From Kibdelosporangium persicum (lineage in GTDB: Bacteria > Actinomycetota > Actinomycetes > Mycobacteriales > Pseudonocardiaceae): 64,000 nucleotides of DNA. A program made the position numbers and the translations under genes. Positions 5,445-64,000 of the stretch are shown here, in pieces (position 1 is the first letter of the stretch; each line of letters opens with the position of its first letter). The notes below the pieces were generated by a model that searched no databases, had not been told where the DNA came from, and saw only the letters and a list, made by a program, of their open reading frames with translations. The stretch spans positions 163,820-227,819 of the forward strand of contig NZ_JAAATY010000004.1 of NCBI RefSeq assembly GCF_013280595.1, read 5' to 3'.

Positions 5445-6422
5445 GTGGGCAAACTGGACGACTACCGAGCCAGGTGGCGGTGGCTCGACCACCTGGTCCG
5501 GGCGAAAGATGCCTTCTCCGAGCGCTACGGCAACCAGTTCGCCGCGGCCATCACCTACTTCAGCGTGCTGTCGCTGTTCCCGCTGCTGATGATCGCGTTC
5601 GCGGTGGCCGGGTTCATCCTCGCCGCCCAGCCGGAGCTGCTCCAGCAGCTCAAGGACGGCATCAGCAAGGCCGTCCCCGGCAACCTCGGCGGCACGATCA
5701 ACGAAGTGGTCACGACCGCGCTCGCGTCCAAGGGCACGGTCGGGATCCTCGGCCTGCTGGCCGCGTTGTACTCCGGCATCGGCTGGATGACCAACCTGCG
5801 GGACGCGCTGACCGCGCAGTGGGGGCACGAACGCAGGCAGTTGCCGCTGGTGTCCACCACCCTCAAGGACTTCGTCGCCCTGCTCGGCCTCGGCCTCGCC
5901 CTGGTCGTCTCGTTCGGCCTCACCGCGGCGGGCACCGGCCTGGGCAACGTGTTGCTGCGGCTCGTCGGCCTCGAAGACGTGGGCTGGGCCCGTTTCCTGC
6001 TGTTCCTGGCCGCTCTGGTGCTGTCGGTGGTCGCGAACTGGCTGGTGTTCATCTGGGTGCTCACCCGGCTGCCGCGCGAGAAGGTCGACGTCCGCAGCGC
6101 GGTCAAGGGCGCGCTGGCCGCCGCGATCGGCTTCGAGATCCTCAAGCAGCTCGGCGCGATCTACCTGACCGCGGTCACCAGCTCACCGACCGGCGCGCTG
6201 TTCGGGCCGGTGATCGGTCTGCTCGTGTTCGCCAACCTGGTGGCGCGCTTCCTGCTGTTCATCACCGCGTGGACGGCGACGGCTAGTCCTCCCGGAACAA
6301 CGGGTCGATCCGGTCAAGCTGAACCGTCTGCTCAGGATCTGTCTCCCGTCGAGGCCCGGCGGGTAGAGCCGGACGGGCGTAGCGCCGCCGAATCCGCCAG
6401 ACCAGGAAACCGAGGATCGTGA
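5445..6422 (+). CDS. YihY/BrkB-family inner-membrane protein
   Basis: This 325-residue protein of the YihY/virulence factor BrkB family has about six membrane segments. The N-terminus (YRARWRWLDHLVRAKDAF, then ITYFSVLSLFPLLM near residues 40-60) is characteristic of the family; the biochemical function is not settled. The GTG start at 5445 lies 44 bases after trpS. The last 46 codons overlap the convergent dac gene by 140 bases. This tail (Pro, Ser and Arg rich, no membrane segment) looks like readthrough into antisense sequence rather than a conserved domain, so an ancestral stop codon near 6280 was probably lost. Confidence 0.88.
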   Translation: MGKLDDYRARWRWLDHLVRAKDAFSERYGNQFAAAITYFSVLSLFPLLMIAFAVAGFILAAQPELLQQLKDGISKAVPGNLGGTINEVVTTALASKGTVGILGLLAALYSGIGWMTNLRDALTAQWGHERRQLPLVSTTLKDFVALLGLGLALVVSFGLTAAGTGLGNVLLRLVGLEDVGWARFLLFLAALVLSVVANWLVFIWVLTRLPREKVDVRSAVKGALAAAIGFEILKQLGAIYLTAVTSSPTGALFGPVIGLLVFANLVARFLLFITAWTATASPPGTTGRSGQAEPSAQDLSPVEARRVEPDGRSAAESARPGNRGS

Positions 6423-7590
6423 CACCGGAGATCGACATCGCGGCCGTGGGCAGCACCCCTGACGTGTTGTCGATCGGACCGGCGCTGGTGCCCGTGCCCG
6501 ACACTCCGCCGTTCGCCAGTGCACCTTCCGACTCGGCCGGGCTCGGCGTCCGCTGAGGCGGCGTGTTCAGCGTGCCGACGGGCTCGGCATTCCTGCCCAC
6601 CGCGGCAAAGCCCCACGTCAGCAGTTTTGATGCCTGGTCGGTGATGCGGACCGGCTGCTGCTCGCCGCGCAGCAGCACGACCACGAGCCTGCGGCCCTTC
6701 TGCTCGGCGCCGCCGAGGTACGTGTGGCGTGCGTCGTCGGTGAAACCCGTTTTGCCGCCGAGGAATCCCTGGTACCTGCCGAGCAGGCGGTTGTCGTTGT
6801 TGACTTTGAAGCCCGCCTTGGTGCCGTAGCCCGGCCAGTCGATCTGCTTGGTGGCGACCGCCTTGCCGAACTCCGGGTTCTTCATCGCCTCGCGGTAGAA
6901 CAGCGCCATGTCGTAGGCCGACGTCATCATCCCCGGCCCGTCCAGGCCGGACGGCGTGGCGACCTGGGTGTCCTGGGCACCCAGTTTCCTGGCGATGGCG
7001 TTCATCTTCCGCACCGTCTGCTCGACACCGCCGAGCTGCACGGCCAACGCGTGCGCGGCGTCGTTGGCGGAATGCATCAGCAGCGCCAGGAACAGCTGGT
7101 TGACGGTGTACTGCCCGCCCGGGCCCATGCCGACCTTGGTGCCCTGCTGGTTGGCGTCCTGCTGGGTGCCGGTGACGACCTTCGACATGTCCAACTCGTC
7201 CAGCACCGCCATGGCGAGCAGCACCTTGACCAGCGAGGCCGGCCGCTGCCGCCCGTGCGGGTCCTTCGCTCCGACCACGTCACCGGTCGTCAGGTCGGCC
7301 ACGATCCACGACGCGGTGGTCACGTCCGCGGGCGGTGCGGCGGCCCCGGACGGCACCACGACGCCGCATTCGCCCATCCGCGGCCCGCCGGACGGCTTCT
7401 CCGGCACCGGAACCGGGCTCGGCGAAGGCTGGCCCGGCGGCGGGTTCTCCGAGGTGTCCACCGGAGGCGGCGGAGCAGTCTTGTTCGGGCACGAGTCGTT
7501 CGGCTGCGCCGCCGCCGTCAGGCTCGCGGACGCGAACAGGCACAGCGCGGCGAGCAGAACGGCGACCAGTCGCCGGGACGTCAGGACCAC
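6283..7590 (-). CDS. dacB: D-alanyl-D-alanine carboxypeptidase (low-mass PBP, S11 type)
   Basis: This exported enzyme trims the terminal D-Ala from peptidoglycan stem peptides. It starts at GTG 7590 with a signal peptide (hydrophobic residues 8-27, TAAAQ), a Pro-rich linker (residues 38-68), then the transpeptidase-like domain. All active-site motifs are present: Ser119-Leu-Val-Lys122, Ser174-Ala-Asn176 and Lys280-Thr-Gly282. A C-terminal membrane segment (about residues 385-405) is followed by a short basic and then acidic cytoplasmic tail. It lies 33 bases downstream of a close paralogue whose motifs are all mutated, so the two probably form one transcript. The family call is firm; the symbol follows the mycobacterial homologue by synteny. 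Confidence 0.93.
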   Translation of the reverse strand: MVLTSRRLVAVLLAALCLFASASLTAAAQPNDSCPNKTAPPPPVDTSENPPPGQPSPSPVPVPEKPSGGPRMGECGVVVPSGAAAPPADVTTASWIVADLTTGDVVGAKDPHGRQRPASLVKVLLAMAVLDELDMSKVVTGTQQDANQQGTKVGMGPGGQYTVNQLFLALLMHSANDAAHALAVQLGGVEQTVRKMNAIARKLGAQDTQVATPSGLDGPGMMTSAYDMALFYREAMKNPEFGKAVATKQIDWPGYGTKAGFKVNNDNRLLGRYQGFLGGKTGFTDDARHTYLGGAEQKGRRLVVVLLRGEQQPVRITDQASKLLTWGFAAVGRNAEPVGTLNTPPQRTPSPAESEGALANGGVSGTGTSAGPIDNTSGVLPTAAMSISGVTILGFLVWRIRRRYARPALPAGPRRETDPEQTVQLDRIDPLFRED

Positions 7591-7623
7591 AGCCTCAGGT
7601 TAGGGCGTGACACCGACGTCAAG

Positions 7624-8979
7624 TCACCGGCCCTGTGCCCGTAACCGCTTGGCACGAGCCATCTTGCGCTTGGCGGTCATCAGCAGGGCGATCAGCACGA
7701 CCACACCGGCGAGGATGGTGATCGGCAGGCCGAACGTGCCGAACGCGGAGCGGTGCACCGAGTTGGAGCCGGCCAGGCTGGTCGTTTCCTTCTCGTCGCT
7801 GGTCGGGGTGCCCGCGTCGCGGTTGGGTCGCGTCGGCTGGTCGGTCGCGCCCGCGAGTTTCCCGATCGGCTGGACACGGGCCCCGGCGAGCTTGAAACCG
7901 TAGTCCAGCAACGATTCCGCCTGCTCGAACGGCTGCCGGTCGGAGCGCATGACCGTGACGATCAGGTGCCTGCCGTCCCGTTCGGCGCTGCCGACGAAGA
8001 CGTTCTTGGCCGCGTTGGTGGTGCCTGCCTTGCCACCCGTCGTGCCCTTGTACGTGTTCAGCAGCGCGTTGTCGTTGTTCCGGGTGATCGTGGTGTTCCG
8101 GTTGCCCTGCGGCTTGATCTGCACCCGCTTCGACCCGGTCGCCTCGGCGAACTCGGGCAGCCGCATCGCCTCGCGGTAGATCAGCGCGGTGTCGAACGCC
8201 GAGGTGCTCTGCCCGGGCACGTCGTTTCCGTTCGGGTTGACCACCCGGGTGTCGAGCGCCTTGAGCTCACGGGCCAGCGCGTTCATCTTCTGGGCCGCTT
8301 CGTCGGTGCCGCCGAGTTCACGGGCCAGCGCGTTGGCCGCGTCGGCCGCGGGCATCACGATCAGCGCGCGGATCAGGTCGCCGGCCAGGTACTTGCCGTC
8401 GGCGATGATGCCGACCTTGGTGCCCAGCTGCCGGGTGTCCTCCCGGGTGCCGACGATGACCTTGTCCAGCGGGATTTCCTTGAGCGCGACCATGGCCAGC
8501 AGGATCTTGACCGTGCCGGCCGGGCGCTGCCGGGCATGCGGTGCATAACTGGCGAGCACGTCACCGCTCGCCTGGTCGGCGATCAGCCACGAATCGGCCG
8601 TCAGCCCGTCCGGCGGCAGGGTGGCGTTCGGCGGCAGGACGACACCGCAGTCGCCCATCCGCGGGCCGCCGACCGGCTCCTCCGGCAGGTCCAGCGGCGG
8701 CAGCTGGTCGCCGTTGCCCTCGTTGGCGGGCGGCGGCACGGCCTTCGCCGTGCAGCCCGCGGCCGCGGCGCCGTCGGACGGCCTGCTCGAGGTCGTGCTG
8801 GACCCCGGCGTCTTGGCGGACGTCGAGTTCTTGGGGGAGGTGGCCGTCGAACCTCGCGACGGGCTGCTCGGCGAGGTCGGTTGGGCGTTCGCCACCGGCA
8901 GGGCGGCGAACGTGACGGCAGCGGCGATGCTGAGACTCAGGTTCAGTACGCGGGCCAGTTGCCGAGCTCGTTCAGGCAC
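7624..8979 (-). CDS. D-Ala-D-Ala carboxypeptidase-like protein with no catalytic residues
   Basis: This is a 451-residue paralogue of the downstream dac gene with the same layout: signal peptide (residues 10-33), Ser/Thr/Pro-rich linker (35-70), PBP-like domain, C-terminal membrane segment and a basic tail. The shared GGPRMGxCGVV block confirms homology. However, the nucleophile motif SLVK reads Gly155-Thr-Val-Lys158, SAN reads Ala211-Ala-Asp213, and KTG reads Lys317-Ala-Gly319. With the serine absent the protein cannot acylate, so it should be a pseudoenzyme, perhaps a binding or scaffolding partner of the active copy. The frame is intact with no stops or shifts, arguing for selection rather than decay. 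It is the first gene of the pair. Confidence 0.9.
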   Translation of the reverse strand: MPERARQLARVLNLSLSIAAAVTFAALPVANAQPTSPSSPSRGSTATSPKNSTSAKTPGSSTTSSRPSDGAAAAGCTAKAVPPPANEGNGDQLPPLDLPEEPVGGPRMGDCGVVLPPNATLPPDGLTADSWLIADQASGDVLASYAPHARQRPAGTVKILLAMVALKEIPLDKVIVGTREDTRQLGTKVGIIADGKYLAGDLIRALIVMPAADAANALARELGGTDEAAQKMNALARELKALDTRVVNPNGNDVPGQSTSAFDTALIYREAMRLPEFAEATGSKRVQIKPQGNRNTTITRNNDNALLNTYKGTTGGKAGTTNAAKNVFVGSAERDGRHLIVTVMRSDRQPFEQAESLLDYGFKLAGARVQPIGKLAGATDQPTRPNRDAGTPTSDEKETTSLAGSNSVHRSAFGTFGLPITILAGVVVLIALLMTAKRKMARAKRLRAQGR

Positions 8980-14071: not shown

Positions 14072-15825
<1,754 letters not shown>

Positions 15826-15855
15826 TGGTTCATCCGGCCTTCGTGGTGGGGTGGA

Positions 15856-16263
15856 TCAGGCGTCCATGTTCGGGTCGAAGGTGAAGATCACGAACGTGCC
15901 GAGCGCGAGGATCAGCACCATCGAGACGTACAGCAGGACCTTCAGCCAGAACCGGGTGGCGTCCTTGCGGGCGTAGTCGTTGATGATCGTGCGCAGCCCG
16001 TTGCCGCCGTGGATCTCCGCCAGCCACAGCATCGCCAGGTCCCAGAACTGCCAGAACGGCGAGGACCAGCGGCCGGCCACGAACCCCCAGTTGATCCGGT
16101 GCACGCCGCCGTCGAGGATGTTCATGATCAGCAGGTGGCCGAGCACGAGCACCAGCAGCGCGACACCGGACACCCGCATGAAGACCCAGCTGGCCAGCTC
16201 CCAGTTGCTGCGCCGGACGGACGGGCGGAGTGGGGCGCGGGGGCTGTCGAGTCCGAGCGTCAT
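15856..16263 (-). CDS. sdhD: succinate dehydrogenase membrane anchor subunit
   Basis: This 135-residue anchor subunit has three membrane helices (about residues 28-48, 68-84 and 105-126). A histidine within the first helix region (LVLGHLLIM) is a candidate haem ligand. It helps bind haem b and quinone together with SdhC. The ATG at 16263 overlaps the sdhC stop by the ATGA arrangement. Order and spacing (C, D, A, B) are those of actinobacterial complex II. Confidence 0.93.
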   Translation of the reverse strand: MTLGLDSPRAPLRPSVRRSNWELASWVFMRVSGVALLVLVLGHLLIMNILDGGVHRINWGFVAGRWSSPFWQFWDLAMLWLAEIHGGNGLRTIINDYARKDATRFWLKVLLYVSMVLILALGTFVIFTFDPNMDA

Positions 16264-16679
16264 GACGCCCCTCCGAACATCTCGGTGACCGTGCGGACCA
16301 GCATGAAGTACGCGCCGGGGATCATCACCAGCAGCCAGACCACGAGGATGCCCCAGAGCATCTGCTTCTGGTAGCGCGGGCCCTTCTCCCAGAAGTCCAC
16401 CAGCATCACACGGACGCCGTTGAGCGCGTGGTACAGCACCGCGCCGACCAGGCCGACCTCAAGCAGGTTGACGAGCGGGGTCTTGTACGTCTCGATGATC
16501 TCGTTGTACGCCTGCGGCGACACCCGCACCAAAGCGGTGTCCAGCACGTGCGCGAACAGGAAGAAGAACGTGAGCACACCCGTGATCCGGTGCGCCACCC
16601 ATGACCACATACCCGGGTCACCGCGGTACAGCGTCCCGCGTCGGCTGGGCCGCGACGCCTCAGCGGCTTCGGCGGACAT
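16260..16679 (-). CDS. sdhC: succinate dehydrogenase cytochrome b556 subunit
   Basis: This first gene of the sdh operon encodes a 139-residue anchor with three membrane helices. The family signature SWVAHRITGVLTFFFLFAHVLDTAL (near residues 26-50) includes the conserved His/Arg and a haem-ligand candidate, and YHALNGVRVML (near residue 84) carries a second conserved histidine. The start codon at 16679 is followed by MSAEAAEASRPSRRGTLYRG, similar to other actinobacterial SdhC. The divergent region 16680-16887 should carry the operon promoter. Confidence 0.95.
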   Translation of the reverse strand: MSAEAAEASRPSRRGTLYRGDPGMWSWVAHRITGVLTFFFLFAHVLDTALVRVSPQAYNEIIETYKTPLVNLLEVGLVGAVLYHALNGVRVMLVDFWEKGPRYQKQMLWGILVVWLLVMIPGAYFMLVRTVTEMFGGAS

Positions 16680-16887
16680 CGGTTTTCAGGCCTCCAACAT
16701 CGCTGATCACTCGGCTAGATGGGACTGGGAGTCCAACCGGGACGAATACCCACCGGGCCTTGACCTCAGGGATGCTAGTCCGGTCGCCTGCGGCTGACCC
16801 AACCAGCGGTTGGCGTCTGTGACACACAGAACACCCGGGCCGCGTGAAAGCGCCGCCCGAACGGGCGATCGGTGCCAGGCTGTCGGC

Positions 16888-18066
16888 GTGGTCCCCCTGA
16901 TCGGCCTTGTCGTCGGCCTCGCCGTGCTGCAGCCCTCTGACGTGCCCAAGCTCGATGTCCCGGCGGCGACCGGCGCACTGGAGACCCAGCAGGTCTACCA
17001 GGCTCCGGGCGTCGTGACGCACATCGATCTGCCCGTGGTCACCAAGGAGATGGCGCCGGACACGAAGCTGCTCATCGCCCCGTTCAGCTCGTACAAGGAC
17101 GACGAGCGGCACGACAAGGTTTACGAGCCGCTCAGGAAATGGGCCGAGAGCAGGAAGGTGCGACTGATCACAGTGGAGGGCCTGTACACCCGACGGGGTC
17201 CTTCGAACGTGACGGAGCTGCGCCAGCAGACGGCGTACATGGACATCACCGGCCCCGCTTTGGCTTCGGTGCGGGAGGTCAACAAGGTCCCGGCCGGCCA
17301 GGTCTACCCGGCGTACGAGGTGCGTACGCCGACCCCGGCGCAACTGGCCGACCTGGCGGGAAAGCTGCGGCAGAACCGGATCCACAACGCGCCGGACCGG
17401 GCGGACAAGTTCACCCTGTCGCCTTCGGCGATCCAGGAGAAGACCGGCTTCACCGTCCGGGTGGCGGCGCTGCCCGCGCTCAAACCGGGCGAGCCGTTCG
17501 TGGACTACGCGCCCGCACTGGCCAGAGAATTCCCTGACGACATCGTGTTGGTAGCCCAAGGCTATTGGATCGAGGTCGCCGGCAAGGACCGGGAACGCCT
17601 TGAGTCGGCGCGGAACTACGCCTTCGGCCGGTACGAGATCGGAACGTTCCTGAAGGGCGGCACGGTCGACGGCCGGGTCGCCACGATCCTGACCCGGCTA
17701 GACGAACTGAGCCGCCGCAAGCCTTTCGGCCGTCCGCAGCCGGAGACCTACGACCCGGCCGCCACCATCACGCGCTACACGCCGCTGGCGTGGGGCGGAT
17801 CGGCTGTAGTCCTCGGTGGTGGCGCGCTCGCCGGGTTCGCCGTGCGCGGGCGCAAGCGCCGGCAGCGGGAAGAGGCCGAGCTGTGGAAGGCGAAAGCCAA
17901 GGCGTACGCGAAGATCAGCGCTCTGGGAACGGCCCTGATGGACAGTGGGGATCTGGCGGCCGCCGAACGGTATACCACCGCGCGGGACCTGTTCGAGCAG
18001 GCGCGCACCGCCGAGGCGATGGCCGAAGTGGAGCGGATCGCCGACGAAGGGCTGGAACTGCTGTGA
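16888..18066 (+). CDS. membrane protein of unknown function, gene 1 of a three-gene operon
   Basis: This 392-residue product was not recognised. GTG 16888 is chosen because it begins a hydrophobic anchor (VVPLIGLVVGLAVLQ); the open frame extends upstream but lacks a better start. A large extracytoplasmic region follows (about residues 20-305). A second membrane segment near residues 305-330 (TPLAWGGSAVVLGGGALAG) is followed by a basic, helical cytoplasmic tail. The tail segment around residues 365-390 (YTTARDLFEQARTAEAM and EGLEL) resembles the end of gene 3. The stop overlaps the next start (GTGA), so the three proteins probably act together. The gene is divergent from sdhC. Confidence 0.75.
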   Translation: MVPLIGLVVGLAVLQPSDVPKLDVPAATGALETQQVYQAPGVVTHIDLPVVTKEMAPDTKLLIAPFSSYKDDERHDKVYEPLRKWAESRKVRLITVEGLYTRRGPSNVTELRQQTAYMDITGPALASVREVNKVPAGQVYPAYEVRTPTPAQLADLAGKLRQNRIHNAPDRADKFTLSPSAIQEKTGFTVRVAALPALKPGEPFVDYAPALAREFPDDIVLVAQGYWIEVAGKDRERLESARNYAFGRYEIGTFLKGGTVDGRVATILTRLDELSRRKPFGRPQPETYDPAATITRYTPLAWGGSAVVLGGGALAGFAVRGRKRRQREEAELWKAKAKAYAKISALGTALMDSGDLAAAERYTTARDLFEQARTAEAMAEVERIADEGLELL

Positions 18067-55269: not shown

Positions 55270-56235
55270 TTATCCGCGGGGGACCTTTCGAACCAGATCA
55301 GGGCGCCGGTTTCGTACGTGTTCGGCGAACTGGCGCCAGGCTTGCGAGCAGTCGTTGGCCACCTCGGCGACGGCCTCGACCCAGTGCGACGGCACTGTGT
55401 CGATGAGTTCCGGCCAGCTCCTGGCGACCACCGCGTGCGAGTCGAGGAGGCGCAACAGGACACGCCCTTTCTCGGAGAATCGCAGGATCGGGTCCTGGCG
55501 CAGCACTTTCAACAACGCTTCCAGGTCGAAGGCGTCATCCGGTCTGCTTTCGGTGAGTCTGGCGCGGCGTTGGGTGGGTAACAGTGGGTCGTCGCCGCGG
55601 TGGACGCGGTTGCGCACGTCACGCGCTGTGTTCAGGGATACGCCCGCACCCTCGGAGATCTCACGCAGGGTCGCGTCCGGCTTGCCTGCCAGGATGTCCG
55701 CGGCGCGTTCCCGGCTTGCCGCGCCGTCGACCGGACGGGTCCGGCCGTCCCGGCCGATTCTGGTGGTCACCGGCAGGACTTCGTGGGCCAGTTCTCGCCG
55801 CATCGCCGCCACGGTGCCGGCCGCCAGGCCCACCGCCGACGCGATCGCCCGGTCGGACCAGTGTGGATGGGACTCGAAGATCCGTTCGGCGGCGGCCTTG
55901 CGGTCGGCGAGCGACAGTGGCAGTCCGTGGCTGACGTTCATCTTCACGGCGAGCACGAAGGCGTCGTCCGCGGTGCCGTCGAAATACCGGACCTTGATCG
56001 TTCGTTCGCCCCGCAGCACCGCCGCTTTCAGCCGGTGCGCGCCGTCGATCACCCGCATCGTCTGCCGGTGCACGACGATCGCGGGGAGTTCGTCGCCGAT
56101 TCCGGCGAGAACGTGCGCGTGTTCCTCGTTTCGCCCATTGATCCGAGGAGAGTCGCTGACCGACAACGCGTCGATCGGCACGATCTCGGTGCGGTCATCG
56201 ACCACGTCGAATGAAGCGCATTCCTTCGCATCCAT
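55270..56235 (-). CDS. StrR/Bbr-type ParB-like pathway-specific activator
   Basis: This 321-residue DNA-binding regulator matches the family of StrR (streptomycin), NovG and Bbr/Tei15* (glycopeptide) activators. The ParB N-terminal domain has PIDALSVSDSPRINGRNEEHA (near residue 20) and RVIDGAHRLKAAVLRGERTIKV (residues 61-82), followed by MNVSHGLPLSLADRKAAAERI and a helix-turn-helix (SDRAIASAVGLAAGTVAAMRREL, residues 127-149). A second conserved half (GVSLNTARDVRNRVHRG) follows. ATG 56235 follows GGGGA 6 bases upstream. It borders a group of biosynthetic-type genes, which it probably switches on. A perfect 17-bp palindrome lies 81 bases upstream. Confidence 0.9.
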   Translation of the reverse strand: MDAKECASFDVVDDRTEIVPIDALSVSDSPRINGRNEEHAHVLAGIGDELPAIVVHRQTMRVIDGAHRLKAAVLRGERTIKVRYFDGTADDAFVLAVKMNVSHGLPLSLADRKAAAERIFESHPHWSDRAIASAVGLAAGTVAAMRRELAHEVLPVTTRIGRDGRTRPVDGAASRERAADILAGKPDATLREISEGAGVSLNTARDVRNRVHRGDDPLLPTQRRARLTESRPDDAFDLEALLKVLRQDPILRFSEKGRVLLRLLDSHAVVARSWPELIDTVPSHWVEAVAEVANDCSQAWRQFAEHVRNRRPDLVRKVPRG

Positions 56236-56315
56236 GGAAAATCCCCACTGTGATTTCCGCGTGCCGGCCGCATGGCCGTTCGTCGAAACGTTCCCCTCGG
56301 TGGACTTGGTCGCGC

Positions 56316-56332
56316 GAACCGGACACCGGTTC
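56316..56332. promoter_or_regulatory. perfect palindrome upstream of the StrR-type gene
   Basis: GAACCGG-ACA-CCGGTTC lies 81-97 bases upstream of the regulator start. Its GAAC...GTTC ends resemble the outer bases of StrR-family sites (GTTCGACTG/CAGTCGAAC) in inverse order. It may be an autoregulatory site. Confidence 0.5.
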
Positions 56333-56470
56333 TGTGGAAGGGCGCGGCGGCACCACGGTTCATCGGCTTCGACGAACCGCACTCCAGCCGGACGCGCCCA
56401 GTCCTAGGTGGACCCACCAGGTCTGGTCTTGTGATTTCCCACCGTGCTCATCCCCTCGCGGCCAGCGTCC

Positions 56471-56489
56471 CGGGCGGCGACGCCGCCCG
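56471..56489 (-). terminator. hairpin downstream of the methyltransferase gene
   Basis: CGGGCGGC (56471-56478) pairs perfectly with GCCGCCCG (56482-56489) over a 3-base loop. It lies about 205 bases beyond the methyltransferase stop on the same transcript and may end it before the regulator gene. No T-run is present. Confidence 0.4.
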
Positions 56490-56695
56490 CACGACCCTCC
56501 CAACGGGTCACTTCCCCGGCGTACAGCCGTTTGGAAGCCCTTAGGAGGCCACGCTACCGCGAGACCGATTGAGGTGTTCGGCCTGAAAGTGGCGATTTGG
56601 TAACGGCGGCCGTGCCGTCCCGGTTGCCCGAGTGGACACTCAAAACAGGTCGGCCAGGCATCTTCGCAGGTGAGAGCGGTTCACACCGCAGTGGT

Positions 56696-57841
56696 CTAGA
56701 CCGTTGGACAGCGTGGGACGCCGCCTTCGGTGTTCCGGCCCTTTTCGATGAAGGCGATGTTGTGGTACACGTGCAGGCCGGTCACGTTGGCCGCGGCGTA
56801 CCCGCCGATACCCGCCACCGGCAGCTCCTCGTGGTGTAGACCATCCGTCAGCGTCTTCAGCAGGCCGAGTGACGTGCCGCCGCAGTCGGCCGGATCCTCG
56901 CTGCCGCCATAGCTTGGCCGGTACGAGGTCCACAAGTCCTCGATGACGTAATACCCGCCAGTTCGCACGTATGGCAAAAGAGCGGCGAAGGACGAGCGGA
57001 CGTGCTCGTTGATGTGACTGCCGTCGTCGATGACGACGTCGAACGGGCCGTATTGCCCGGCAATCCGCACCAGGGCGTCAGTGTCGCTCTGGTCGGCCCG
57101 CAGCGTGGTGATCCGCTGCTCGTCCAGGTGTGACTGGTCAGAAATGTCTAGACCAAAGATCCAGGACCGCGGAAAGTAGTGTTTCCACATCCGCAACGAG
57201 CCGCCGTCGAACGCGGAGTCGTATCCGCCGAAGCCGATTTCCAGGACGCGCAACGATTCCCGGCGCAATGGGCGCAAATGCCGTTCGTACCGCGGCCCGA
57301 ACCGATGGACTAGACCATTTTTGGCCGACCGGTGACGCACCGCGAGTTTCGCCAGATCCGGCGCTTTCGACGTGCATCCTTCGAGCACCGCGTGCACCGC
57401 TTGGGCGGCCGCACCGAGATAAGCGAGTTGTTCCGGACTGGTCGAACTGCCCGGACCGGCCTTGGTCGCCCGTGGCAGCGGAGTCGTCGCGCGCGCCGCG
57501 GATTCGAGGTTGTCGCGTGACCCGAACAGTTCCCTGGCCAGTTCGGCGACGTCGTAGTCGATCCGCATGGCCACCCGCTTGTCCGGCGACGGCTGCGGGA
57601 TCAGGTCGACCGGAACGCCTTTCGCCGCGCGGATGAAGTACGGGATGGTCAGGCCCTTGGTCATGATGCGCACCTCGATCACGACGGGCCAGTCGTTGTC
57701 GGGGATGCCTGCACGGAACAGGACCTCGTCGATCAGGATCGACGCCACCTGCTCCGGCCGCATCGCGGCGGTCACCGCGTCGAGCTCGGCGGCACCGGAA
57801 CCGGCCGCTCGAACCAGCTGCTCGACTGCCTTGTGCGTCAT
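56696..57841 (-). CDS. MycE-like SAM-dependent O-methyltransferase
   Basis: This 381-residue enzyme resembles the macrolide-sugar O-methyltransferase MycE. An N-terminal auxiliary domain (residues 1-115) is followed by a Rossmann methyltransferase with motif I VLEIGFGGYDSAFDGGSLRMW (residues 199-219), GLDISDQSHLD (Asp232) and the metal/catalytic block VVIDDGSHINEH (Asp272, Asp273, His276). Such enzymes are Mg-dependent and methylate hydroxyls of sugars or sugar-like scaffolds. ATG 57841 excludes an unsupported 5' extension. It is divergent from the PhyH-like oxygenase with a shared 316-base promoter region. The substrate is unknown. Confidence 0.9.
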   Translation of the reverse strand: MTHKAVEQLVRAAGSGAAELDAVTAAMRPEQVASILIDEVLFRAGIPDNDWPVVIEVRIMTKGLTIPYFIRAAKGVPVDLIPQPSPDKRVAMRIDYDVAELARELFGSRDNLESAARATTPLPRATKAGPGSSTSPEQLAYLGAAAQAVHAVLEGCTSKAPDLAKLAVRHRSAKNGLVHRFGPRYERHLRPLRRESLRVLEIGFGGYDSAFDGGSLRMWKHYFPRSWIFGLDISDQSHLDEQRITTLRADQSDTDALVRIAGQYGPFDVVIDDGSHINEHVRSSFAALLPYVRTGGYYVIEDLWTSYRPSYGGSEDPADCGGTSLGLLKTLTDGLHHEELPVAGIGGYAAANVTGLHVYHNIAFIEKGRNTEGGVPRCPTV

Positions 57842-58157
57842 CGAATCGTGCCTTCCCCTGGGATGATCGCTGTCCGCACGGTATCCGGTTGTGGTGCGGT
57901 GTTTCCTCAGTCCACAGCCGGAAGCCCGGCCTCCGCCTGTGGTCTGACCGGACCGGCGGCGACCACATCCGGCCCGGTTCGCTGATCCGGACACGATCCT
58001 GTTATCTGGTGGTAAGTTCACGTCACCCGTTGTGTCCGAGATGTCACCGGATCGCTTCAACCTGGTGGATGAGGCCAGATTCCAGTCCGGCGACTGACGA
58101 CAACCCCTCCTCGCGCTGGAAAAGTAGCTCGCAAGATCGTTCAGCAGAGGTGATGAC
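57842..58157. promoter_or_regulatory. divergent promoter region between methyltransferase and oxygenase
   Basis: There is no gene in these 316 bases. TGTGGTC (57938-57944) and GACCACA (57961-57967) form an inverted repeat with a 16-base spacer, and CAGTC-CGGC-GACTG (58083-58096) forms a second, smaller dyad nearer the oxygenase start. Either could be an operator for the cluster regulators. No promoter hexamers stand out. Confidence 0.45.
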
Positions 58158-59174
58158 ATGATCGATTCTGATCGGTATACGCACCGAGCTTCCTCCGCTC
58201 TTCCCTACTACAGCGCCGACGGCGAGAGTTACCGCGCCGAGACGGCCTTGCGGGACCTCGAGAAAACCCTGCCACTGCGCGTTCTGTCCGAATCGGACTT
58301 CGAGTTCTGGCAGACCTACGGGTACGTCGTGGTGAAGGAGGCGATTCCGCGCGAGCATGCCCGGCGGTTGCACGACTTCGCCTGGGAGTTCCAGGGTCTG
58401 GACCCGGACCGGCCGGAGACCTGGTACCCGGAGCGGCATTTCGCGTCCGACCTGGAACGCGACCTGTACGTCTACGGCCTGGTTGAGGCGTACCACCATC
58501 AGTTGATGTGGGACAGCCGCCAGACCCAACGGGTCTACGACGCCTTCGTCGACGTGTGGGACTGCGAAGAGCTGTGGGTCACGTTGGACCGGCTCAACCT
58601 GAACCCGCCGAACGTCCGCAACCGGGACTGGAGCGTCATTCCGCGCACCGACCGGGGCTTCGACATGGACCTGCACTGGGACGTCGACACCACGCTCGGC
58701 ATGCCGCCGCAGCGTGTCCAGGGCATCATCGCCCTGAACGACACGTCACCGGACCGTGGCGGTTTCCAGTGCAATCCCGAGCTGTTCCGGCGCTTCACCG
58801 AATGGAAGCGCACGCAGCCGGCGGACCGTGATCCCATCCGCCCGGACGTCGACCGGTCGGCGTACCCGGTCATCAAGCCGCAGCTCGAAGCCGGTGACCT
58901 GCTGATCTGGAACGGGTTGCTGGCACACGGCGCGGCACCGAACCAGTCCGCGTCCGGTGTGCGGGTCGCGCAGTACCTGGCGATGATGCCCGCGCTGGAA
59001 TCACACGACGAGCTCCGGCAGTCGAGGGTCGACTCCTGGCGTCATCTCCGGACGCCGGAGTGGAACGCGACGCTCATCGGCGACAAGGACCAGCACGAGT
59101 CACAGCGGTACTCGGCCGCGAAACTGTCCGGCCTGGGCGAGAGATTGCTGGGCCTGCGGTCATGGCACGAGTGA
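58158..59174 (+). CDS. phytanoyl-CoA dioxygenase (PhyH)-family Fe(II)/2-oxoglutarate oxygenase
   Basis: This 338-residue non-haem iron enzyme has the metal triad His173-Trp-Asp175 and His257, and the 2-oxoglutarate-binding Arg269 in SGVRVAQY. The double-stranded beta-helix core spans about residues 130-275. PhyH proteins in actinomycetes usually hydroxylate or halogenate metabolite scaffolds or amino acids; since Asp175 is present, hydroxylation or a related oxidation is expected rather than halogenation. ATG 58158 follows GAGGTG. It is the first of five same-strand genes ending with the exporter. Confidence 0.9.
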   Translation: MIDSDRYTHRASSALPYYSADGESYRAETALRDLEKTLPLRVLSESDFEFWQTYGYVVVKEAIPREHARRLHDFAWEFQGLDPDRPETWYPERHFASDLERDLYVYGLVEAYHHQLMWDSRQTQRVYDAFVDVWDCEELWVTLDRLNLNPPNVRNRDWSVIPRTDRGFDMDLHWDVDTTLGMPPQRVQGIIALNDTSPDRGGFQCNPELFRRFTEWKRTQPADRDPIRPDVDRSAYPVIKPQLEAGDLLIWNGLLAHGAAPNQSASGVRVAQYLAMMPALESHDELRQSRVDSWRHLRTPEWNATLIGDKDQHESQRYSAAKLSGLGERLLGLRSWHE

Positions 59175-59199
59175 CCCGTCGGCGACACGGAGCAACAGC

Positions 59200-60507
59200 A
59201 TGCAGAAGATATGCCTGAGCCTGCCCACTAACCGGGCGTGCGCCGCCACGGTGTCCGCCCTGATCGAGGAGGCGGGGTACGCGGCGGACACCTTCGCGGT
59301 GGAAGTCCACGTCCTGATCCTGGATTCCTCTGACGAAGCCACGTTCGCCCGGCACGCGGAAGCCGCCTCCGGAGCACGCCCCGATGTGATCGTCCACCAC
59401 CTGAACGAATCGGCTCAGCGTGACCTGCTGTCCCGGACCGTGCGCGGTGCGGACGTGAGCGACCCGGATCGCTTGCTGGACTTGATGCTTCCGGACGGGG
59501 TGGCATACGGAGCCTGCACCAACCGCGCGTTCCTGTTCAGCTCGGCGCTGGGCTGTGCGTCGATCCACCGCAGGGACTCCGACAGCCGCTACCAGGAGCT
59601 GGGCGGCAGAAAGATCTTCCCGATCCAGCACGAACTGGGCACGCTGGGCAAGCGTGCGATCGACGCGGCCGACGCCGTGTCCGAGACAGACCTTGACCTG
59701 TCGCACGCACATCAGCCCGTGGTTCTGGCAGGCGCGTCCTTCGTCGGTGAGATGTCCGTGGACATCGACGAGATCCGTCAGCTGGATCCGGAGGTCTACT
59801 ACGACGTCGTCGGCCTGTGGGCGCCGAGCCGGGCGTCGGCCGCGGAACGGCGTGCCTTGGTCGACGAATCGTTCCTGGGCGCCGAGAACGCCACCTTCAC
59901 CAAAGATCGCGCCACTTTGACGGTCGTCGACCCGATGCACGTCGACATGTGCAACATCGCCTTCCACTCGGTGCACGAGCAGCTCCCGCTGCCCCCGGCG
60001 AAGCAGACCATCGGCAGTGACTACTTCCTGTTCCACGTGATCCGGCACGCGGCATTGCCTGGCGTGCACCACAACCGGCACATCGTCAACTACTACACGC
60101 CGGAGCGCCGGACGCCGGACGGGTTCGTCGACTACCAGACCCGGCTGGTCAAGTTTTTCCTGTCCATGCCGTACCTGCATCACGTCTACGACGCCATGGC
60201 CAAGGCAGGCAAGGAATTGGTGCGGGACAGGGCTTCCCTGGACGTCGCGCGGATCGCGGGTTTCGTCCGGGAGAGCATGCTGCTTTCCACGGAGGAGAAC
60301 GCGGGGAAGCTGGACGAGATCGACCGCGCGTACCGCAAACTCGGCGGCAAGTACGAGCGGCTCGCCGACCTGCTCAGCGGGCAACGGCGGCAGTTGATCG
60401 ACGCCGCCGTGCGGGACATGGACGACTTCGCGTTCCTGATCGACAACTGGCGGTCGCTCGTCCGGTCGGCCAGGTCCGCGGGCGTGCTCCAGCCCGCCGG
60501 TACGTGA
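59200..60507 (+). CDS. DUF6271-like protein, possible GT-A-type glycosyltransferase
   Basis: This 435-residue cytoplasmic protein matches, from memory, the DUF6271 family. The first strand and loop (KICLSLPTNRACAATVSALIEEA) and the DxD-like Asp126-Ser-Asp128 in HRRDSDSRYQ recall GT-A nucleotide-sugar transferases. Further conserved blocks are LMLPDGVAYGACTNRAFL, VDIDEIRQLDPEVYYDVVGLW, PMHVDMCNIAFHSV and IGSDYFLFHVIRH. The C-terminal 120 residues are helical. It lies 25 bases after the oxygenase and 3 bases before the decarboxylase. Transfer of a sugar or sugar-like group is inference; no activity is known for the family. Confidence 0.78.
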   Translation: MQKICLSLPTNRACAATVSALIEEAGYAADTFAVEVHVLILDSSDEATFARHAEAASGARPDVIVHHLNESAQRDLLSRTVRGADVSDPDRLLDLMLPDGVAYGACTNRAFLFSSALGCASIHRRDSDSRYQELGGRKIFPIQHELGTLGKRAIDAADAVSETDLDLSHAHQPVVLAGASFVGEMSVDIDEIRQLDPEVYYDVVGLWAPSRASAAERRALVDESFLGAENATFTKDRATLTVVDPMHVDMCNIAFHSVHEQLPLPPAKQTIGSDYFLFHVIRHAALPGVHHNRHIVNYYTPERRTPDGFVDYQTRLVKFFLSMPYLHHVYDAMAKAGKELVRDRASLDVARIAGFVRESMLLSTEENAGKLDEIDRAYRKLGGKYERLADLLSGQRRQLIDAAVRDMDDFAFLIDNWRSLVRSARSAGVLQPAGT

Positions 60508-60510
60508 GAC

Positions 60511-61695
60511 ATGGTCGAGTACGACTCGGTTCTCGCCGCACTGGCATCGGTCGGCGGGGACCAGCTGGTCTTCGACCTCGCCGGCATCCGGCAGCGGTAC
60601 GACTCCCTGGTCCGGGAACTGCCCGGCGCGGCCGTCCGGTTCGCGATCAAGTCGTGTCCGGCGCCTGAACTGCTGGATTTCCTGACCGAGTGGAACAGCG
60701 GCTTCGACGCGGCCAGCCCCAGGGAACTGGCGCTGGCGATCGAGGCGGGCGCGCCGATCGACCGGATCCACTACGGCAACACGGTCAAGTCCGATGAGGA
60801 CATTCTGGCCGCGTACCGCCTCGGGGTTCGGGACTTCGCCACCGACAGCGTGGAAGACGTCGTGTCGATCGCCGCCCATGCGCCTGGTTCACGGGTGTTC
60901 TGCCGGATCGCCACCTCGGGTGAGGGAGCGTTCTGGGGCCTCAGCCGCAAGTACGGGTGCTCGACGGTCGAGGCGGTCCGGGTGCTGGTCACGGCCAACT
61001 CGTTGGGGCTGAAGCCATCGGGCCTGTCGTTCCATGTCGGATCGCAGCAAATGACCGCCACGGCATGGACACGTGCCTTCGCCGATGTCGCCGAAGTGAT
61101 CGTGGCGTTGCGTGCGCACGGGATTGCGCCCGATCACGTCAACGTCGGCGGCGGTTTGCCCGCGCTCGGCTACCTGGACACGAACGGCACGCCGTTGGTA
61201 CCGCCCATCGGCGAGATGTTCGCGTCCATCAGGGCGGGCATGGCCGAGGTCCGGCGGGTGGCCGGGGCACCGATCGGCTTCAGGCTGGAGCCGGGGCGGC
61301 ATCTTGTCGCCGACAGCGGGGCGATCAAGGCCCGGGTGTCGCGCTTTGCCGTGCGGGAGCTGCGCGACGGTGAACGGGAGCACTGGCTCTACCTCAGTTG
61401 CGGGAAGTTCAACGGCCTGTACGAGCTGGATCAGGTCGTCTACCCGTTCGTGTTCCCGACGCACATCGGCGAGGAGTCCGCGCCTGCCGTCGTCGGCGGG
61501 CCGACGTGCGACAGTGACGACATCTTCTTCCAGGGACGGCCGGTGGTGCACGTGCCCACGTCGATCCGGTCCGGCGATCCAGTGTGGATTCTGTCCAGCG
61601 GCGCCTATTCGATCAGCTACACCACGGTCGGCTTCAACGGTTTCCCGCCGCTTCCGGCGACGTTCGTGCGCCCGTTGGAAGGAGTGGCGTGCTGA
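60511..61695 (+). CDS. fold-III PLP amino-acid decarboxylase (Orn/Lys/DAP type)
   Basis: This 394-residue enzyme is of the alanine-racemase-fold decarboxylases. The PLP lysine is Lys47 (RFAIKSCPAPELL), followed by SGFDAASPREL. His175 stacks on the cofactor (SFHVGSQ), the Gly loop is GGGLP (213-217), Glu260 lies in LEPGRHLVADSG, and the second-subunit Cys333-Asp334 (GPTCDSDDI) and Tyr366 complete the site. These residues are those of active dimeric decarboxylases. The substrate may be ornithine, lysine, diaminopimelate or a pathway-specific amino acid. It overlaps the acetyltransferase gene by 7 bases. Confidence 0.9.
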   Translation: MVEYDSVLAALASVGGDQLVFDLAGIRQRYDSLVRELPGAAVRFAIKSCPAPELLDFLTEWNSGFDAASPRELALAIEAGAPIDRIHYGNTVKSDEDILAAYRLGVRDFATDSVEDVVSIAAHAPGSRVFCRIATSGEGAFWGLSRKYGCSTVEAVRVLVTANSLGLKPSGLSFHVGSQQMTATAWTRAFADVAEVIVALRAHGIAPDHVNVGGGLPALGYLDTNGTPLVPPIGEMFASIRAGMAEVRRVAGAPIGFRLEPGRHLVADSGAIKARVSRFAVRELRDGEREHWLYLSCGKFNGLYELDQVVYPFVFPTHIGEESAPAVVGGPTCDSDDIFFQGRPVVHVPTSIRSGDPVWILSSGAYSISYTTVGFNGFPPLPATFVRPLEGVAC

Positions 61696-62159
61696 TCCGT
61701 GCGGTGGCCGACGAGGATTGGGACAGCATCGCGACTCTGGAAGCCGGTGCCTACCAGGACCTCGGGCTCTCCGAGGACCTGTCGGTGCTGAAGTCACGCG
61801 CGCAGACCGCCTTCGTGCTGGAGCTCGACGGGACGACGGCCGGGTACGTCCTCGCGTTGCCCTGGCGGCCTTTCCACTGCCCTGATCTGGGCCGTCCGGA
61901 ACGGGAAATCGTCGCTTCCACGAACCTGCACCTGCACGACATGGTGGTCGCCGACGAGCACCGACGGCGTGGGCTGGGACGGCTTCTGCTGTCCCGGCTC
62001 GTGCGGGCGGCCAAGGACGCGGGGTACGGGCGGATCTCGTTGGTGGCGATCGGGGGACGCGAGAAGTTCTGGTCGGCCAACGGTTTCCGGCCTCACCCGC
62101 AGATCACCGTGCCGAGCTGTTACGGCCCGGGCGCGCTGTACATGTCCACGGCGATATAG
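61689..62159 (+). CDS. GNAT-family N-acetyltransferase
   Basis: This 156-residue acetyl-CoA-dependent transferase has the core LHLHDMVVADEHRRRGLGRLLLSRLVRAA (residues 77-105) with the acetyl-CoA pyrophosphate loop RRRGLG, and the C-terminal strand/helix FWSANGFRPH. GTG 61689 overlaps the decarboxylase stop, so an amine made by that enzyme is the likely acceptor. It may serve biosynthesis or self-protection. Confidence 0.88.
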   Translation: MLIRAVADEDWDSIATLEAGAYQDLGLSEDLSVLKSRAQTAFVLELDGTTAGYVLALPWRPFHCPDLGRPEREIVASTNLHLHDMVVADEHRRRGLGRLLLSRLVRAAKDAGYGRISLVAIGGREKFWSANGFRPHPQITVPSCYGPGALYMSTAI

Positions 62160-62171
62160 GAAGTGGTTCCC

Positions 62172-63338
62172 ATGACACGGCAGTCCCTGCGGGCCGAGAT
62201 CGCGGTGGCCGCGTTCTTCCTCTGCCTCGGTTTCCAGTACGCCACCTGGACGTCGAGGTTGCCTGCCATCAAAGACACCTTGGGGCTGACCACCGGCCAA
62301 ACCGGACTGCTGATCCTGGCGTCCGGAGCGGGCGCGGCGGTGTCGTTCCCGCTCGTGACGGTGTTGATGCGCAAGCTCGGTTCCCGGAGCCTGGCAGGCG
62401 TTTCGGCGATCACCGTGGCGTTGTGCCTGATTCCGATCGCCCAAACGCCGCCGTACCCGGTGATGCTGGCGATCCTGTTCGTCAACGGGATTGGCTGCGC
62501 CTGTCTTGACGTCGCGATGAACGCACAGGGCGCGCTGCTCGAAGAGACCTACGAGCGGACCGTCATGTCCCGGTTGCACGCCGTTTTCAGCGGTGGCGGA
62601 CTGATCGGCGCGCTGGCGGCGGCCGGAGTCAGCAGTGTGACCCCGAACCTGACGGTCAACTTCGGGATCGCGGCCGCCTTCATCGTAGTGCTTGTCGCGT
62701 ACGCGTGGCCGCGGCTGTCGCCCGGTGATCTCGCGGGCCAGACGCGATCGTCCGAAAAGGTCAGACGCGGATTCACCCTGCCGACCCGCCTGGCTTTGCT
62801 GCTGGGCTTGGCAATGGCTTTCGCCACCGTTGTCGAAGGCGCGATGACCGACTGGTCTGCGGTGTATCTCAAGGATGTCGCCGGGGCGTCCGCCGAACTC
62901 GCGCCGATGGGCGTCGCGGTGTTCTCCGGCACGATGCTCGTGGCCCGGTTGTTCGCGGATCGCTGGCGGAGCCGTTGGGGGGACCGGCAGGTCGTCATGG
63001 TCGGGTGCACATTGGCTGCCATCGGGTTGTCGATCGGCCTTGTGTTCGGTGGCATCGTGCCGATGTTGGCCGGTATCGCGTGCGTGGGCCTCGGTGTGGC
63101 CGCGGCTGGTCCGTGCGTGTATGTCGCGGCGGCCAAGCAAGGTCCGGACGCCCTGACGTTGGTGGCCGCGACGGGCATCACCGGAATGCTGGCCGGGCCG
63201 CCGGTCATCGGCTACCTGGCCGAATTCAGCAGCCTCACGTGGGGCATGACGGCGGTCGCCGTCGCGGCGTTGCTCGTGGTGTTCTGTGCCACGCGGATTC
63301 CGTGGCCGGTGGCGGAGAAGCAGGATGCCCGAAGCTAG
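62172..63338 (+). CDS. MFS exporter
   Basis: This 388-residue major facilitator protein has 12 predicted helices. Landmarks are FFLCLGFQYATWTSRLPAIKDTLG (residues 14-37), a loop 2-3 motif VTVLMRKLGSRS, and the second-half ADRWRSRWGDRQ. The family includes YbjJ/FucP-like and antibiotic efflux members. ATG 62172 follows AGGAAG 8 bases upstream. It closes the oxygenase-to-acetyltransferase operon, so export of the end product is the natural role. Confidence 0.92.
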   Translation: MTRQSLRAEIAVAAFFLCLGFQYATWTSRLPAIKDTLGLTTGQTGLLILASGAGAAVSFPLVTVLMRKLGSRSLAGVSAITVALCLIPIAQTPPYPVMLAILFVNGIGCACLDVAMNAQGALLEETYERTVMSRLHAVFSGGGLIGALAAAGVSSVTPNLTVNFGIAAAFIVVLVAYAWPRLSPGDLAGQTRSSEKVRRGFTLPTRLALLLGLAMAFATVVEGAMTDWSAVYLKDVAGASAELAPMGVAVFSGTMLVARLFADRWRSRWGDRQVVMVGCTLAAIGLSIGLVFGGIVPMLAGIACVGLGVAAAGPCVYVAAAKQGPDALTLVAATGITGMLAGPPVIGYLAEFSSLTWGMTAVAVAALLVVFCATRIPWPVAEKQDARS

Positions 63339-63427
63339 AAACGGCCGATCAGTCGAACTCCCTTCTGTACAACGTTCTCAGGCAAACGTCAACCTGTGGC
63401 CGAAGTGCGCCAGGTCCCGGTGTGGTG

Positions 63428-63449
63428 CAACTGTTCAATCAGACAGTTG
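63428..63449. promoter_or_regulatory. inverted repeat between exporter and terminal regulator gene
   Basis: CAACTGT (63428-63434) and ACAGTTG (63443-63449) flank 8 bases. Upstream, CAGTCGAAC (63350-63358) equals one half of the published StrR-type site, but its partner half is not at the usual 11-base distance. The interval 63339-63573 carries no other gene. Confidence 0.45.
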
Positions 63450-63573
63450 AACCCCGGCGGCCGTGCGTCCCGGAAAGTTGCGTGGCCGTAGGCGGCTCGG
63501 GATGATCACCGCGGCTCTGGGCGAGCCGGCGCGTCCCGAGAAGTCCGACACGACAGGTTTGGGGAGTTCGGCT

Positions 63574-64000
63574 GTGACGTTTCCTGGTGCGAAAACGGAG
63601 ATCCTGGTGTGCAGCCCGCATCCGGTGATCAGGGAGGGGCTCGTCTCGATCATCGACCGCGATCCCGTGCTGACCGTGGCGGGTGATGCCGGGACCGGTG
63701 ACGCACTGGTGGAACTCGCCAGGACGCTGCGGCCCTCGATCGTGGTGACGGCCCACGTACCGCCGGCGCTGGACGCGATGCGGATCAGCGCGGCGCTCGG
63801 CCGGGGCACCGATCCCCGGGGCCGTCCACGGGTGGTCGCGCTGGTCGGCGACCTGGACCACCGGGAACTGCTGGAGATGATCCAGGCGGGAGTGCGCGGG
63901 ATCGTGCTGGAGGACATGATCTCCAGCGAGCTGACGTCGGCGTTGCGCACTGTCGCGTCAGGACTGATGGTGCTCGGTGTGCCCGCGATCGACAGCACGT
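63574..64000 (+). CDS. response-regulator-like protein with degenerate receiver domain, cut by the window edge
   Basis: The first 142 residues resemble a NarL-type receiver domain (ILVCSPHPVIREGLVSII). The acidic pair that normally precedes HPVxREG is replaced by Cys-Ser-Pro (13-15), and the phospho-acceptor Asp position is Ala60 (VVTAHVPP). Phosphorylation is therefore not expected, as in the atypical response regulators that read metabolites or cluster end products. GTG 63574 has GGGGAG 7 bases upstream; ATG 63502 is in frame. The DNA-binding part lies beyond the window. It borders the exporter and may control the cluster. Confidence 0.82.
   Translation, partial: MTFPGAKTEILVCSPHPVIREGLVSIIDRDPVLTVAGDAGTGDALVELARTLRPSIVVTAHVPPALDAMRISAALGRGTDPRGRPRVVALVGDLDHRELLEMIQAGVRGIVLEDMISSELTSALRTVASGLMVLGVPAIDST

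Follow-up and report, generated by a model that had tools for sequence, protein, structure and literature searches.

A recurrent PhyH-DUF6271 gene cassette in Kibdelosporangium persicum, a candidate pathway for a small modified amine

At the right edge of the window analysed here (the whole stretch of 64,000 nucleotides at contig positions 163820-227819 of Kibdelosporangium persicum) lies a locus of eight genes, at 55270-64000. Five of them, running on the plus strand from a gene for a PhyH-family dioxygenase and one for a DUF6271 protein to an exporter gene of the MFS family, constitute a cassette that recurs in other genomes and is considered here as a candidate biosynthetic pathway. The genes and features of the locus are as follows, with positions counted within the window.

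55270..56382, minus strand: StrR/ParB-like activator, named by resemblance to annotated StrR/ParB-N proteins; the true start may instead be 56232 or 56205
56696..57841, minus strand: MycE/TylE-type sugar O-methyltransferase (PF17843, 75.6 bits)
58158..59174, plus strand: PhyH-family Fe(II)/2-oxoglutarate dioxygenase (PF05721, 48.4 bits)
59200..60507, plus strand: DUF6271 protein, a predicted GT-A-fold nucleotide-sugar enzyme (PF19787, 676 bits)
60511..61695, plus strand: fold-III pyridoxal phosphate (PLP) decarboxylase of the ornithine/lysine decarboxylase type (PF02784, Orn_Arg_deC_N, 133 bits)
61689..62159, plus strand: GNAT N-acetyltransferase (PF00583, 48 bits)
62172..63338, plus strand: MFS exporter (PF07690, 102 bits), which closes the conserved gene order
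63425..63452, no strand assigned: candidate StrR-type palindromic operator, matching 17 of 18 arm positions, ahead of the terminal regulator gene
63463..64000, continuing to window-equivalent 64272, plus strand: LuxR/NarL-type regulator with an atypical receiver, 269 amino acids from the first possible start

Between PhyH and MFS, successive genes are separated by 25 bases and 3 bases, overlap by 7 bases, and are then separated by 12 bases. On a recheck of the open reading frames, the coordinates, order and spacing given in an earlier sequence-only reading of this DNA all proved correct, and Pfam supports its family name for every gene except the StrR-like one, which is named by similarity. 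The start codons of the GNAT and MFS genes are those chosen in that reading, with which a second gene call agreed. Its picture of a compact, StrR-linked gene group free of polyketide synthase (PKS) and nonribosomal peptide synthetase (NRPS) genes was likewise borne out.

We read 69 non-duplicate loci with a canonical DUF6271 gene (38 long and 31 short; DUF6271 identity to the window's copy, 48-62%). In every one of them PhyH lies immediately 5' of DUF6271 on the same strand, with 12-153 bases between the aligned ends. The decarboxylase, GNAT and MFS genes follow this pair in the same order in 30 of the 30 loci that match all three, a count that includes locus L036 with its decarboxylase remnant, and the genes flanking the cassette vary between most loci. 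Further loci came from contigs of Streptomyces (six) and Lentzea aerocolonigenes, and from plasmids of Embleya, Streptantibioticus cattleyicolor, S. chartreusis and S. clavuligerus. Among 392 sampled genomes of one Streptomyces-like genus, 123 have DUF6271 and 119 (about 30%) have both DUF6271 and PhyH. The four genomes with DUF6271 and no PhyH hold a remote DUF6271 only (G573, G657 and G685) or fragments only (G900), and the PhyH matches in the four genomes of the converse kind are all paralogs, at 47-50% identity versus 67-74% for cassette PhyH. DUF6271 scores above cut-off in 7 of 150 relatives, and 5 of 396 genomes sampled from the phylum have a match, both counts including this genome, in which PhyH is the sole match to its family at E 0.001. 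No PhyH was found over the span examined in five loci with a remote DUF6271 (L030 and L102-L105; 20-28% identity). The gene set occurs together far beyond chance; its members are co-conserved and not scattered singly through relatives, and it was such scattering that the sequence-only reading had named as fatal to its proposal. We favour, at about even chances, the reading that these five co-inherited genes, linked to StrR in this lineage, form a specialised-metabolite cassette that would make a glycosylated, decarboxylated and acetylated amine.

An HxD...H facial triad together with an arginine for 2-oxoglutarate is the motif of PhyH dioxygenases. Both are present in the window's PhyH, where H173-x-D175, H257 and R269 are invariant in 69 sequences; a sequence search of the PDB with PhyH gave no credible match. 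The window's PhyH is without a C-terminal tail that is present in seven aligned relatives, and its gene stands 25 bases from DUF6271 (59174-59200), versus a 19-base overlap in many relatives.

The DUF6271 protein matches PF19787 over residues 3-429 of 435 (cut-off, 25 bits), and a PDB sequence search with it gave no credible match. Ranked by VIA-align rather than by Foldseek's own order, the best structural matches of its model in the PDB are GT-A nucleotide-sugar enzymes, which match over the whole length. A DxD motif in this fold, as in nucleotide-sugar enzymes, and a histidine, H291, are invariant across aligned family members. In a profile comparison GT2 ranked first of 41 families and beat 60 of 60 column-permuted copies, at a weak score (hhalign E 0.0011, probability 21%). 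DUF6271 is thus probably a GT-A-fold enzyme acting as a metal-dependent glycosyltransferase. The sequence-only reading had proposed glycosylation from the DxD motif; the step now has a structural basis in the GT-A matches of the model, and the reaction itself is one we infer. In-frame TGA codons had been flagged in 12 DUF6271 genes, and recoding was rejected as their explanation: in the four genes checked at both ends (L090, L093, L097 and L099) the codon is a normal C-terminal stop.

The same fold raises the question of whether DUF6271 transfers a sugar or reshapes one. It might be a nucleoside diphosphate (NDP)-pyranose/furanose mutase like the GT75 enzymes (MtdL of the A201A pathway and plant UAM/RGP) and supply a furanosyl donor. 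The best fold matches are indeed mutases rather than transferases, the model aligns with GT75 over residues 1-425 (297 residues), the DxD aligns with the DDD in a protein resembling MtdL, and an invariant histidine, H291, may occupy a similar place. Identity to MtdL is 11-14%. According to PMC9937993, GT75 enzymes require a conserved arginine nucleophile, Arg159 of MtdL, and a distal metal-binding histidine, His287 of MtdL. DUF6271 differs here: a column test found no conserved arginine between residues 126 and 290, where the nucleophile would lie, in 10 diverse or in 71 sequences, though the arginines conserved elsewhere (R124, R125, R293 and R303) might substitute. In addition, the cassette has no further gene recognisable as a glycosyltransferase, and the PF03214 (GT75/RGP) profile found no candidate in this genome and matched one of 150 genomes. 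We consider the mutase alternative unlikely and retain glycosyl transfer as the favoured role of DUF6271.

The decarboxylase is nearest to lysine/ornithine decarboxylases (PDB 2plj, 1e-36). Alignment with 2plj and 5gjm shows the PLP lysine, HxGSQ, GGG, EPGR, TCD and tyrosine motifs all to be present, and K47, H175, GGG213-215, E260, R263, D307, C333, D334 and Y366 are invariant in 59 sequences. An identity as diaminopimelate decarboxylase was rejected, TIGR01048 scoring 126.6 bits against a cut-off of 297.9. D307 and D334 correspond to the two residues of ornithine decarboxylase (ODC) that bind the distal amine, and their conservation suggests a substrate that carries a second polar group. For GNAT, the PDB gave only a weak, NATA1-like match (9e-4 over 47 residues). 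These ODC- and lysine decarboxylase-type residues, D307 and D334 among them, and the NATA1-like match would also suit a modified polyamine or amino acid that is not glycosylated, with the GT-A-like fold of DUF6271 serving some other nucleotide-dependent reaction. Yet the invariant DxD and histidine and the whole-length GT-A matches favour a nucleotide sugar, and the window locus has a sugar methyltransferase of the MycE type, so that we regard a sugar-free product as improbable.

That methyltransferase has a MycE_N domain and matches along its whole length the MycE/TylE sugar O-methyltransferases (PDB 3ssm, 7e-112 over residues 5-377 of 381; TylE-type 8ia9, 5e-94). Its homologs in 60 relatives show 38-46% identity, and none of the other cassette loci showed the gene over the spans examined. 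O-methylation is therefore a local addition at most, and the seven-gene set of the sequence-only reading narrows to the five genes, PhyH to MFS, that are co-conserved. With the same reservation about O-methylation, its proposal of a small amine product is partly supported: the enzymes fit a hydroxylated, glycosylated, decarboxylated and acylated amine.

Two kinds of cassette can be told apart. The A-type comprises 29 long loci that reach far enough upstream, and in all of them decarboxylase, GNAT and MFS come after PhyH-DUF6271 in an unchanged order. The count of accessory genes omits L092 and the 31 short loci, which have truncated flanks. Close pairs exist among the loci (L019/L020 and L011/L015). 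A gene for a NagZ-type GH3 protein stands beside 19 of the 29 and a StrR-like gene beside six, no locus has both, and four have neither (L022, L032, L033 and L035, the last with a 31-amino-acid GH3 remnant). The edge of a GH3 gene is also visible in four short loci (L060, L065, L067 and L069). In the B-type, which comprises seven loci (L017, L028, L037 and L106-L109) that cluster in a tree rooted on this type, the decarboxylase and GNAT are replaced by a condensation-domain protein, a different MFS protein, a carrier-protein-like gene, a phosphopantetheinyl transferase (PPTase) and a class-II aminoacyl-tRNA synthetase (aaRS)-like protein. Of the L028 domains, those for condensation and PPTase score above the Pfam cut-offs; the carrier protein (18.7 bits, cut-off 20.8) and the aaRS-like domain (26.1 bits, cut-off 29.3) score below theirs. 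A further locus of S. clavuligerus, L029, has the PhyH-DUF6271 pair with neither ending. Taken together, A-type, B-type and L029 loci indicate that the common element is PhyH plus DUF6271 and that the finishing steps are exchangeable.

The NagZ-type GH3 gene at 19 of the 29 A-type loci and the MycE-like sugar methyltransferase together point to a sugar. A more elaborate form of our reading, which we put forward tentatively and hold to be rather doubtful, is a large, undescribed class of non-modular natural products. Here a scaffold like that of GT75, but lacking its internal arginine acceptor, would glycosylate a freshly hydroxylated amino acid; one of two interchangeable endings would follow, either decarboxylation with acetylation or an aminoacylation in which the condensation protein draws on a carrier protein; and in loci that also have a NagZ-type GH3, this enzyme would later remove the sugar, making glycosylation a cryptic protecting step. 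The GH3 gene could also have a quite different meaning. Its product bears KHFPGHGDVAVDSHH, is closest to 6k5j, and by reading has no signal peptide at its N-terminus, so that it is probably cytosolic. These features would fit a resistant target copy, in which case the cassette product would inhibit beta-N-acetylglucosaminidases and GH3 would confer self-resistance instead of deglycosylating. Against this, an intact GH3 gene is missing next to the cassette in the window and in nine other flanked A-type loci, and no iminosugar-forming enzyme was recognised in the cassette. Self-resistance of this kind seems to us a distinctly unlikely role, and we continue with a glycosylated amine as the favoured product.

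Several observations concern other DUF6271 loci. The plasmids of S. clavuligerus hold two kinds, the condensation-type L028 and the PhyH-DUF6271 pair alone (L029). A plasmid of Apilactobacillus kunkeei (L030, 7453-17851) encodes a remote DUF6271 (20% identity, 96.6 bits, HRRDSD kept). Around it are two ATP-grasp ligases and proteins of the aaRS-like, carrier and MFS kinds (one each), to which the annotation adds a methyltransferase, an IlvE-type aminotransferase and a transketolase pair. This may be a further biosynthetic cluster, carried by a symbiont of honeybees, and no description of it was found in the open literature searched. Transketolase was rejected as a pathway partner: it is beside DUF6271 in L028 and L030, but the remaining six condensation-type loci showed none over the span examined. 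Two further genomes share a neighbourhood of a remote DUF6271 (L104, 1552-11825; L105, 1507-11912). Families were scanned in L104, which has an Asn-synthase-type protein, a DegT aminotransferase, a histidine-phosphatase protein with a P-loop region, a GNAT and a GT2, and L105 was compared by homology and has homologs of these.

The StrR-like protein has no Pfam match above cut-off. It matched 88 plasmid records, and the 15 listed are at 46-51% identity; those with an annotation are called ParB-family/ParB N-terminal, helix-turn-helix and, once, 'streptomycin biosynthesis protein'. Similarity over the whole length and a cognate palindrome place it among StrR-type activators, and binding is predicted. 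Homologs adjoin the cassette in L016 and L018-L021. Scanning was done with what we take to be the StrR operator consensus. In the first scan the best site lay upstream of PhyH in L018, L019, L020 and L021 (15-16 of 18), L016 had its best sites before other genes and a weaker one (13) before PhyH, and among the 11 control loci one, L013, likewise scored 15 of 18, away from PhyH. Arm position 5 was then relaxed to A or G, so that the model behind the later scores was in part adjusted to the relatives. With this model, 15-17 of 18 positions match upstream of PhyH in all five StrR-bearing relatives (0 of 100 shuffles in each), versus 11-14 of 18 in all 17 scanned loci without StrR, out of 32 long canonical ones. 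In the window, the site at 63425-63452 (17 of 18) was equalled by none at or above 17 in 60 shuffled windows. Its pattern occurs once in the 10.35 Mb genome and the reversed control not at all, a test of specificity and not of discovery, the pattern having been written after the sites were seen.

With a 17-of-18 site before the terminal regulator and nothing significant before PhyH, StrR most likely drives the LuxR-type regulator here, and it is a guess that this regulator relays control to the five genes. Direct control of the five genes by StrR in the window is conjectural. The terminal regulator, completed by sequence past 64000 that the sequence-only reading had wished to see, has a GerE domain (LuxR-type helix-turn-helix, 69.7 bits) and a Response_reg score of 21.5 bits, below the cut-off of 30.2; PADLOC gave weak matches only, to its helix-turn-helix. 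To its right lie flavodoxin-like, phosphomannomutase-like and nucleoside phosphorylase-like genes (judged by eye), and because these look like housekeeping genes the locus probably ends at the regulator. The G+C content is 0.65-0.67 at 56001-62000 as against about 0.69 in the 20 kb before, and elsewhere in the window it is also 0.66; the dip is weakly consistent with acquisition from elsewhere. A phage search gave no match. In L016 (Lentzea aerocolonigenes; 5641-7670 and 14922-17343), StrR-type sites are likewise found ahead of two other genes, one for a PALP protein and one for an aldehyde dehydrogenase. The PALP gene adjoins an ornithine-cyclodeaminase-family gene, a pair that we take to resemble SbnA/SbnB, which make 2,3-diaminopropionate.

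GH3 and GNAT enzymes also act in sugar catabolism, and the cassette is frequent, as might be expected if its role lay in the catabolism of amino sugars or amines, or in stress. We hold such a function to be very improbable, given the six loci where a StrR-like gene goes with matching operators, the MFS gene, the patchy distribution, and an alternative lineage with condensation and carrier proteins.

In the biosynthetic pathway that we favour, PhyH would use Fe(II) and 2-oxoglutarate to hydroxylate a substrate derived from an amino acid. DUF6271 would hold a metal and a nucleotide sugar by its DxD and probably also by the distal histidine, and would move a sugar from primary metabolism onto the new hydroxyl group. 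The PLP enzyme would then take off the carboxyl group, GNAT would acetylate an amine and the MFS protein would export the product. The MycE-like enzyme may methylate the sugar in this genome, and StrR would act at least on the terminal LuxR-type regulator. The scheme builds on gene content, co-inheritance, conserved active-site residues, the predicted DUF6271 fold and operator-like palindromes; we infer from these its substrates, the order of its steps, the sugar, StrR binding, and transfer rather than isomerisation by DUF6271. A number of results tell against it. The decarboxylase of L036 (10317-10646) is reduced to a 53-amino-acid remnant, and in the short locus L084 no decarboxylase was found, GNAT following directly after DUF6271; decarboxylation is thus not obligatory and can be lost. 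Locus distances correlate across the cassette genes (Spearman 0.71-0.80) with species relatedness uncontrolled. Eleven of the 19 GH3 loci form one clade that was fetched because of the TGA flag, and without it the count is 8 of 18. H291 sits in a stretch of the model (291-299) of low confidence (pLDDT <50), a Pfam search with eight DUF6271 members returned no glycosyltransferase family, GT2 (PF00535) included, up to E 10, and the MtdL profile scored E 0.017, no better than one unrelated family (E 0.013). Upstream of PhyH in the window, the best StrR site matches 13 of 18 positions and was equalled by 34 of 100 shuffles.

The open literature searched gave no mention of DUF6271 and no description of the gene set; most subscription papers lie outside this coverage, and a product described under other gene names is therefore possible. 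The sequence-only reading had named the locus its best candidate for an undescribed system, which accords with the open literature searched; nor is it a one-off, the pair being present in 119 of 392 genomes. Vinylglycine and anisomycin were rejected as products, the open literature searched giving no link between them and the gene set. If our reading is true, about 30% of the sampled Streptomyces-like genomes hold a short pathway for which the open literature searched describes no product and which has none of the PKS and NRPS genes that reveal many clusters, and DUF6271 would gain a fold and a probable type of chemistry. The size of five genes, the strict PhyH-DUF6271 pairing and the operators make the proposal directly testable in a standard host.

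Among known systems, mannosyl-3-phosphoglycerate synthase, glucosyl-3-phosphoglycerate synthase and mannosylglycerate synthase are GT-A enzymes acting on small hydroxy acids, to which DUF6271 shows 8-15% identity and no sequence-level link was found. The anisomycin pathway is small and free of PKS and NRPS, and employs a glycosyltransferase, an acetyltransferase and a later deglycosylation, that is, cryptic glycosylation. The cassette differs from it in having PhyH, a fold-III decarboxylase and DUF6271, and no transketolase or dehydrogenase was recognised in it. Clusters under StrR control include those for streptomycin, novobiocin and glycopeptides (PMC10886168). Our locus is like them in its StrR-type activator and palindromic operator, but differs in that none of its eight genes, regulators included, is an NRPS, PKS, cyclitol or deoxysugar gene. 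Specialised-metabolite cassettes are a known kind; it is this cassette family and the placement of DUF6271 that seem undescribed in the open literature searched.

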